Source of the DNA: Candidatus Hodarchaeaceae archaeon
GTDB lineage: Archaea > Hadarchaeota > Hadarchaeia > Hadarchaeales > Hadarchaeaceae
Assembly (NCBI GenBank): GCA_030018135.1
Contig: JASEGJ010000020.1
Span: 375 to 20,112 of the forward strand
Length of the DNA stretch: 19,738 nucleotides
Direction: 5' to 3'
In this document: positions 10,988 through 13,737 of the stretch, piece by piece
How the letters are laid out: each line of letters begins with the position of its first letter
How positions within the stretch are numbered: the stretch's first letter is position 1
Made by a program: the position numbers and the translations under genes
The notes under the pieces: model-generated
The model's input: only the letters and a program-made list of their open reading frames with translations
Told to the model about the DNA's origin: nothing
Databases searched by the model: none

Positions 10988-12010
10988 TCAGAGTTTCTCG
11001 GTGCGCAGGTCTATTGCATCTTCTATGTTTTCGCCGGTCGAGATCAACGTGACCGGCACGCCGAGTTCTTCTTCTATGCGCTCGACGAAGGCCCGCGCGT
11101 CCGGTGGGAGTTGTGAAAAACTGCGCATGCCCGAGCAACCCTTGAAAAGCCGGTCCAAACACGTTATCACGATCTGGGTAGCTCCGTTTATCATCGCGGC
11201 GCGCTTCGCCAGTTCGAAATCGAACGTGCCTATCCGCCGCCTCCGTCCGGTGACTGTCCCGTACTCGACGATGCCAAGCTCCTCGGCTTCCTCGGGGGGC
11301 ATCTCGGTCGCAAACGGCCCGGCGCCAACTCTACTGACGTATGCCTTGAAGACGAGCATGACCTCTTCGATCCTCGTGGGACCAACGCCGACATCCGCCG
11401 CTAGGGTGCTCGCCGAGGTATCCTTGCTCGTCACGTATGGATAAGTGCCGTGGACCAAAGAGAGGCCGAAGCCCTGCGAGCCCTCGATCAGCACGAGTTC
11501 GTCTCGATGCAGGGCGTCGTCCACCTCCCGTGGCACGTCCGCTAGGAAGCGCCGCAACGTTGGGATATCATCAGCTAACTTTGCGACGCGACTCACCCGC
11601 GCAACGTTGGCTGGCCCGCAACCGGTGCCGGTCGAGCCTATCTTCCCCTTGAGGTGCTCGGATGTGCGATCCTGCTCGATGTGCTGCGCCTCGATCACCG
11701 CACACCTGCGGTCGATGCCCAGCCGATCGCCGACGCCTGTTTCCTCGATTTCCTCCAGGACGACCTCGGGGTTGACGAGCACCCCCGGCCCTATCAGCAT
11801 TCGCGCGCCCTCGTGGACAAATCCGGACGGCACTTGGCGCAGGCCGAATTTTTTGCCGCGGAAGATCACCGTGTGGCCCGCATTCGGCCCGACGCCCGCT
11901 CGCGCCACTATCTTCGGCCTATCGTGCAGCGCCAGATATGCAACTATCTTGCCCTTGCCCTCATCACCGAACTGTCCGCCAGCAACGATCACCGCCGGCA
12001 CATTTACCAC
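10988..12010 (-). CDS. purA: Adenylosuccinate synthetase, short archaeal form
   Basis: This enzyme joins IMP and aspartate using GTP, the first step from IMP to AMP. Of its 340 residues, [10 protein letters not shown] (12-21) is the P-loop-like GTP site with the catalytic Asp16. GPNAGHT (41-47) holds the catalytic His46, [10 protein letters not shown] (125-134) binds IMP phosphate, and [10 protein letters not shown] and [11 protein letters not shown] follow. Bacterial and eukaryotic enzymes are about 430 residues; the roughly 340-residue version is usual in thermophilic archaea, so this is not a truncation. The start is GTG 12010, close to the transcript start expected from the TATA box at 12038-12046. 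It heads the purA-AK6(-htpX) unit. Confidence 0.95.
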
Positions 12011-12148: not shown

Positions 12149-12178
12149 GAAAGGTTTAAATATAACACCTTAAAAGGT
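12149..12178 (+). promoter_or_regulatory. Histone promoter with AAGGT/ACCTT arms
   Basis: A purine-rich BRE-like stretch (GAAAGG) precedes the TATA box TTTAAATAT (12155-12163). Transcription is expected near 12185, leaving a leader of about 40 nt that carries GGAGGCG before the ATG. AAGGT (12151-12155), ACCTT (12167-12171) and AAGGT (12174-12178) make interlocking inverted arms over and just after the box, a plausible operator. Confidence 0.5.
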
Positions 12179-12459: not shown

Positions 12460-12777
12460 GTGAGCGAGGAAAAGGCGCGCGTCATCCACATGCCGCGCCT
12501 CTACAACGTTTTCGACATGCCGAAGATCAAGGCGATTCGCGCCACGACCATGCTGCGCTCGAAGGTGAGCCTCGCGGAGGTTCTAAAGCTCGTCCCGAAT
12601 GCGCGGGAGATAAAGACCGCTGACAAGGATATAGTAAAATTTGAACTGCGGCGCAGTGTATACCTCTTGCTTTTCCCATCCGGCTACATCGAGGTGCATG
12701 CGCCTAGCGAGGACGAAATGCGCGAGGTGCTGCTTGCTTTCAGGGATAAATTGTTTGAACACGGGCTGATCAAGTAA
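12460..12777 (+). CDS. Single-repeat TBP-like protein
   Basis: This 105-residue protein resembles one half of a TATA-binding protein. KIKAIRATTMLRSKVSLAEV (22-41) matches the strand and first helix of a TBP repeat. VLKLVPNA (41-48) matches the family's L-x-x-x-PNA/S turn. VYLLLFPSGYIEVHAPSEDE (67-86) matches ALLIFSSGKLVVTGAKS-type strands, and a long C-terminal helix ends EHGLIK, like the KYGLLEE end of archaeal TBP. Normal TBPs carry two such repeats in about 180-190 residues. Phe72 corresponds to one DNA-intercalating Phe; the usual FPG Phe is lacking. A homodimer could rebuild a saddle. The fold assignment is my reading by eye; other alpha/beta folds are possible. GTG at 12460 fits a box (ATTTAAAATC, 12425-12434) overlapping the histone stop codon. 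Confidence 0.6.
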   Translation: MSEEKARVIHMPRLYNVFDMPKIKAIRATTMLRSKVSLAEVLKLVPNAREIKTADKDIVKFELRRSVYLLLFPSGYIEVHAPSEDEMREVLLAFRDKLFEHGLIK

Positions 12778-12789
12778 TTGGGTAGAATC

Positions 12790-13737
12790 ATGCAAAAGTT
12801 GTCCAATGGCGCGAAGATAGCTGTTAAAATATGCATGGGCGTCAAGCCGCGCGAGAGAGTGCTCGTCGTCACAGACCCCGCCAGGCTCCGGGTAGCCGAA
12901 GCTTTAGTTAAGGCCGCCCAAGATGCCGAGGCGGAGGCCGTGCTGATGTGCATGCGGGCCCGCACCAGGCACGGCGAGGAGCCACCAAAACCCGTTGAAA
13001 GGGCGATGGTCGCGAGCGACGTGGTCCTGGCGCCGACCACGTATTCGCTCACCCACACGCAGGCGCGCCTTCGAGCCTGCAGGGCCGGTACAAGGGTTGC
13101 TACGATGCCAATGATTACGGAGCGGATGATGTGCCGGGGGGCCATGCTGGCCGATTACGATGAGGTCAGCAGATTGACGCGCAAGGTTGCGGCCCTCCTG
13201 ACCAAGTCGTCTGAGGTAGAGGTCAACACACCAGCCGGGACGGACTTGTACTTGGATATCACCGGGAGGAAGGCGCATGCCGACACCGGCATCTTCCACA
13301 GGCCGGGCGACTTCGGCAACCTACCGGCCGGCGAGGCGTTCATAGCGCCCCTCGAAGGCAAGGGCGAGGGCAGGATCGTCGTCGATGGTTCAATGGTCGA
13401 CACCCTGTGGGCAAGGACCGAGATAGCGGTGAAGAAGGGGCGCGCGACCGAGATATCCGGTGAGCCCGCTAGAAGGCTGAAGAAAATGCTTGAGAAAGTC
13501 GGGCCGAGGGCCTACAACTTGGCGGAGTTTGGCATCGGCACGAATCCCACAGCTCGGCTCATCGGCAACGTGCTCGAGGACGAGAAGGTGCTCGGCACTT
13601 GCCACATAGCCTTCGGCGATAACTCGACCTTTGGTGGCAGGATTCGGGCGGGAATTCATGTTGACGGCATTCTGATGAAACCGACGATCAAGTTTGACGG
13701 AAATACGGTGGTGAAAGAGGGGCGACTCAAAGTCTAG
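12790..13737 (+). CDS. M29-type aminopeptidase
   Basis: This 315-residue putative leucyl aminopeptidase belongs to the metal-dependent M29 (AmpS, aminopeptidase T) group and would trim N-terminal residues from peptides in the cytoplasm. The whole ligand set of the family can be placed: Glu182 (GEAFIAPLEG), Glu246 (AEFGIGTNP), His272 (GTCHIAFGDN), and His290 with Asp292 (GIHVDGI). It is shorter than bacterial M29 enzymes (about 410 residues), as is common for archaeal relatives. ATG at 12790 gives MQKLSNGAKIAVKICMGVKP, the usual start; a TTG at 12778 abutting the upstream stop is less likely. It follows the TBP-like gene by 12 nt, so the two are probably co-transcribed. Confidence 0.88.
   Translation: MQKLSNGAKIAVKICMGVKPRERVLVVTDPARLRVAEALVKAAQDAEAEAVLMCMRARTRHGEEPPKPVERAMVASDVVLAPTTYSLTHTQARLRACRAGTRVATMPMITERMMCRGAMLADYDEVSRLTRKVAALLTKSSEVEVNTPAGTDLYLDITGRKAHADTGIFHRPGDFGNLPAGEAFIAPLEGKGEGRIVVDGSMVDTLWARTEIAVKKGRATEISGEPARRLKKMLEKVGPRAYNLAEFGIGTNPTARLIGNVLEDEKVLGTCHIAFGDNSTFGGRIRAGIHVDGILMKPTIKFDGNTVVKEGRLKV

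Follow-up and report, generated by a model that had tools for sequence, protein, structure and literature searches.

A stand-alone protein with the predicted fold of one TBP repeat is encoded behind a histone gene in a lineage of archaea

Directly behind a histone gene, the stretch of archaeal DNA analysed here (19,738 nucleotides from a Candidatus Hodarchaeaceae archaeon; the window) encodes a protein, termed TBPL, that is predicted with high confidence to fold as a single repeat of the TATA-binding protein (TBP) and is maintained by selection as a gene of its own. We propose, with a probability of about one half, that TBPL is a lineage-specific accessory protein of monopartite TBP fold, in which a repurposed sheet face, a basic loop and a conserved N-terminal motif would contact nucleic acid and/or a partner in chromatin or transcription. 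TBP is thought to descend from a duplicated single-domain ancestor, and a selected stand-alone repeat beside a working TBP offers a test case for the capacities of one repeat alone. Moreover, its tight linkage to a histone gene gives a direct way into asking whether the protein acts on chromatin. Single TBP-domain proteins that stand alone have reportedly been found in archaea before, by Brindefalk et al. (2013); TBPL would be a divergent variant of them behind a histone gene.

The preliminary description of the window had placed an open reading frame between a histone and an aminopeptidase gene, and the same coordinates and neighbours were recovered (PF00808 and PF02073; Table 1). This frame is a real gene and not a chance product, since 17 genomes carry it with pairwise dN/dS values of about 0.03–0.11, as calculated from pairs whose dS was neither tiny nor saturated. 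The carriers, found in a search of 394 archaeal relatives, belong to one small-genome lineage, 16 of them to one family and the seventeenth to a sister family within the same order. TBPL is intact in every carrier, and an alignment of 16 of the 17 copies contains 24 invariant columns, with 49–68% identity to the window copy; the gene is thus under purifying selection. Distances between TBPL sequences follow those between PurA sequences (r = 0.90), as would be expected under vertical inheritance. Relatives were found neither in the viral contigs nor in the plasmids that were searched. A GatE tree used to weigh gain against loss of TBPL was poorly resolved and required 3–4 changes.

Table 1. Features of the TBPL locus; positions refer to the window, codons to TBPL
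Feature	Codons	Position	Strand	Remarks
Adenylosuccinate synthetase gene purA		10988..12010	-	Divergent neighbour beyond the histone gene, upstream of TBPL
TTTAAATATA, TATA-like element		12155..12164	+	Spotted by eye, upstream of the histone gene
Archaeal histone, 68 aa		12224..12430	+	PF00808, 2.2e-14; 29 bp upstream of TBPL
TBPL, stand-alone protein with predicted TBP-repeat fold		12460..12777	+	105 aa, GTG start
N-terminal motif MPRLYNVFDxPK	11-22	12490..12525	+	Outside the TBP fold; alignment
Strand S1	26-31	12535..12552	+	AlphaFold; invariant R27
Basic loop, strand S2, hairpin turn	47-66	12598..12657	+	AlphaFold
Strands S3-S4, YLLLFPxxYxExH	68-80	12661..12699	+	Alignment and AlphaFold
C-terminal helix H2, RE.L.AFRDELFK	84-100	12709..12759	+	Alignment and AlphaFold
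M29-type metallopeptidase		about 12790-13737	+	PF02073, 3.8e-15; downstream of TBPL

The assignment to the TBP fold comes mainly from structure prediction. AlphaFold returned the β-α-β4-α layout of one TBP repeat both for the window protein (pLDDT 83) and for the most distant family member (pLDDT 88), the two models resting on one shared alignment of 16 sequences. Among solved structures, the first 37 Foldseek matches to the model were TBP entries (best E 7e-4). Superposition of both models on Pyrococcus TBP (1pcz) with VIA-align yielded Z values of 11.9 and 12.0 and an rmsd of 2.0–2.2 over 80 residues, with residues 24–104 of the 105 aligning to one repeat. A non-TBP fold matching better, which had been named beforehand as grounds for rejecting the assignment, did not emerge: the best one was the phosphomannomutase (PMM) C-terminal domain (Z 8.4 and 8.2), and folds of the PMM/PGM or adaptin-appendage type reached 7.5–8.4 compared with 11.9 for TBP, to which TBPL is thus nearer. 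The earlier proposal of a stand-alone single repeat of half the normal size is in accord with these models, in which 105 residues form one repeat and TBPs are the top structural matches.

At the sequence level, support for homology with TBP is real but weak. PF00352 is the sole Pfam family that matches TBPL at E < 0.01; it covers positions 2–84 of 85 (E = 0.0011), yet the score of 19.3 bits lies below the curated cut-off of 22.9 bits, hence Pfam does not call the family, which is probably annotated as 'hypothetical'. A PF00352 match of any kind was obtained for 4 of 16 members, NCBIfam and PHROGs gave nothing useful, and searches of the PDB with phmmer and with the family profile found no TBP by sequence. 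Alignment by hhalign to the lineage's own TBPs was uninformative, as these are too similar, whereas a broader set of archaeal TBP repeats gave a signal over 82–84 columns. The global profile–profile score was 24.4, compared with a mean of 3.5 for shuffled profiles (s.d. 2.5, maximum 12.5, n = 150). The local alignment reached a probability of 18%, and 1 of 150 shuffles equalled its score; homology therefore leans mainly on the predicted structure.

Compared with one repeat of canonical TBP, TBPL has its strands and helices in the same order, shares about 22% identity across 80 residues and retains the LLLF sequence in S3. It differs in having one repeat instead of two, in lacking EPEQFPG, in its changed DNA- and TFB-contact positions and in an additional N-terminal motif that TBP does not possess. 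Residues of the two proteins were matched by hand over secondary-structure elements, and the equivalences are accordingly putative. On this basis L70 and F72 match TBP S3 residues, while the S1 Asn and Val of TBP correspond to A/S25 and to R27, which would thus occupy the place of a DNA-contacting Val. The S4 residues Lys, Val and Thr are replaced by Y76 and E78 (both invariant) and H80 (14/16), and the S2 Arg by Lys or Glu across the family. No aligned member carries an aromatic residue at codons 52–58, at and around the position of the FPG Phe, and the absence of an FPG segment noted earlier for the window protein extends to all 16. Codons 47–66 correspond to the segment that bears EPEQFPG and the stirrup in TBP; here a basic KTSNK-type loop stands in place of the acidic stirrup (EPEQ) found in archaeal TBP, with a net charge for the segment of +1.8 in the window protein and +3.0 to +6.8 in its relatives, and S2 and S3 are joined by a tight R-G turn. 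Taken together, most TBP DNA-contact positions and the TFB-contacting stirrup appear, from the alignment, to be replaced by conserved, largely basic residues. The pI of the TBPL core (9.6–10.5) is on its own weak evidence for nucleic-acid binding, because the two-repeat TBP of the same genome is likewise basic (9.47).

Within strands S3–S4, Y68, L69, L70, F72, P73, Y76 and E78 are invariant. Two motifs singled out in the preliminary description are kept in part. In LLLFPSG, the LLLFP portion persists (L71 is Phe in one member) but the following SG is not conserved; in the PNA turn, P46 is kept almost throughout, whereas N47 and A48 vary. The N-terminal motif is conserved to the same degree as the core, with P12, F18 and P21 invariant and M11, R13 and Y15 present in 15 of 16 sequences, and may bind a partner.

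The same histone gene directly precedes TBPL in all 17 carrier genomes, at a distance of 20–48 bp in the 16 copies for which the gap was measured. The M29 gene follows in most carriers, with the exception of G005 and G022; in G003 the contig ends before this point. The purA neighbour is conserved wherever the contig extends that far. In G007 and G012, which belong to the same family as the carriers, M29 lies directly behind the histone gene without TBPL, and in a third such relative, G001, TBPL is gone and M29 contains an insertion. The histone cluster therefore does not require TBPL, although linkage is strict where TBPL exists, and the association may be passive. The chromatin or transcription role that had been suggested from gene placement thus has conserved gene order as its one basis and is tempered by these three relatives. 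The apparent lack of the gene in G016, G020 and G021 carries no information, because these assemblies lack the orthologous histone locus (best histones 47–51%). Histone and TBPL are probably co-transcribed and would likely be co-expressed, with the TATA-like element upstream of the histone gene as a possible shared promoter. In the disrupted locus of G001 (L071:1740-2400), a piece of the M29 start follows the histone gene in the place of TBPL and is separated from M29 by about 600 bp of unrelated sequence.

A search of the same genome for a normal TBP, as had been recommended, identified an ordinary two-repeat protein (G000:C1:26858-27373). We therefore do not regard TBPL as the sole general factor. 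In our preferred reading, an accessory protein, TBPL would represent one TBP repeat (S1-H1-S1′-S2-S3-S4-H2) selected as a separate gene behind the histone gene. TATA DNA is most likely not bound in the canonical manner; because the sheet face is conserved but altered, a different ligand is favoured. The contact surface would be formed by R27, K60, E62, L70, F72, Y76, E78 and H80, putatively on the concave side, and extended by the basic S1′-S2 loop and the MPRLYNVFDxP motif. Through these elements TBPL might engage nucleic acid and/or one protein partner in chromatin or transcription. A more specific version, in which TBPL defines a class of histone-linked chromatin or transcription factors, perhaps homodimeric, that bind DNA or histone–DNA via the charged concave face without recognizing TATA, appears unlikely to us.

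The main rival to the accessory role is that of a plain protein–protein adaptor of TBP-like/helix-grip fold, comparable to adaptin appendages, CPSF73 or PMM C-terminal domains; such a protein would be unconnected with transcription, and its position behind the histone gene would be historical. PMM/PGM, the β2-adaptin appendage and a U7 snRNP subunit indeed match TBPL at Z 7–8.4, sequence similarity to TBP is marginal, and the histone–M29 pair occurs without TBPL. Nearly all TBPs, however, outrank the non-TBP folds by 2–3 Z units and share 20–28% identity with TBPL, as opposed to 8–18% for nearly all non-TBP rows (PGM of T. kodakarensis, 25%). Given also that no other Pfam family competes with PF00352, we regard an adaptor as rather unlikely. 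Decay of a TBP gene would fit the half length of TBPL and its lack in some relatives, and the preliminary description had mentioned a relic; purifying selection across the family, evident from the invariant columns, the intact copies and the low dN/dS, contradicts this explanation and leaves it with hardly any probability. The decaying remnant was thus ruled out as a candidate.

Two other models, a homodimer that binds TATA DNA and a trap for TFB, are less likely than the accessory reading. As a true half-TBP, TBPL would dimerize through strand S1 into a saddle, bend promoters in the manner of TBP and serve as a paralogous general factor. The predicted TBP-repeat fold, the invariant L70 and the invariant F72, equivalent to one intercalating Phe, agree with this model, and single-repeat TBPs of full signature in other archaea make a homodimeric TBP plausible in general. 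Nevertheless, the FPG Phe, S1 Asn/Val, S4 Val/Thr and S2 Arg are exchanged family-wide for A/S, R, E, H and K or E, the genome also encodes a normal TBP, and true half-TBPs score far higher on PF00352. The earlier suggestion of a general factor hence finds no support, the DNA-contact signature being mostly lost, and we judge this model improbable. Slightly less credible still is a dominant-negative half-TBP that down-tunes transcription as a decoy for TFB or another TBP partner. Such a function would suit the fold, the conserved surface and possible co-expression with the histone. The acidic EPEQ stirrup of TBP is the TFB contact, though, and its replacement by basic KTSNK-type residues, together with the tight turn between S2 and S3, speaks against TFB sequestration as previously suggested.

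TBPL resembles the stand-alone single TBP-domain proteins of archaea in that the whole protein is one TBP domain. Such proteins with the full EPEQFPG / LLLF.NGK / CTGAK signature are encoded at L118:1183-1479 and L119:1284-1556, and further ones at L152, L157-L160, L162, L186 and L187. Their open frames span about 88–119 codons, and presumably they dimerize. One half-TBP gene is the only TBP found in several archaeal genomes, such as G055 (97% complete, 3 contigs), and G172 encodes three proteins of full signature. These true half-TBPs reach about 107–109 bits on PF00352, compared with 19.3 for TBPL, and HMM matches between the two are weak (best E 0.007). Stand-alone TBP-like proteins of about 95 residues occur in several archaeal families (L172-L177, L183); they score 20–25 bits on PF00352 and 96.7% with hhalign against TBP. 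Like TBPL they form one separate TBP-like domain, but they carry an N-terminal Cys, which TBPL lacks, and retain an F.(S/N)GKI turn. Profile comparison by hhalign detected no relationship between this group and TBPL (about 1%). By sequence, TBPL is not confidently alignable to either set and would be a divergent variant of single TBP-domain proteins. TBP-like folds are also present as single copies with other tasks in the N-domain of RNase HIII (DUF3378), the DNA-glycosylase N-domain, the adaptin appendage and CPSF73; these are domains of larger proteins, whereas TBPL stands alone.

Two further observations concern TBP genes elsewhere among the relatives. Five genomes of one genus, g5 (G010, G014, G016, G018 and G021), each contain several two-repeat TBP genes, whereas most relatives have one. 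A protein of 217 residues encoded at L184:1291-1944 carries an apparent lipoprotein signal (LLAGC) ahead of two TBP-like repeats (PF00352, 6.4e-19); other TBP matches exist in that genome, and this product is possibly a cell-surface protein of TBP fold.
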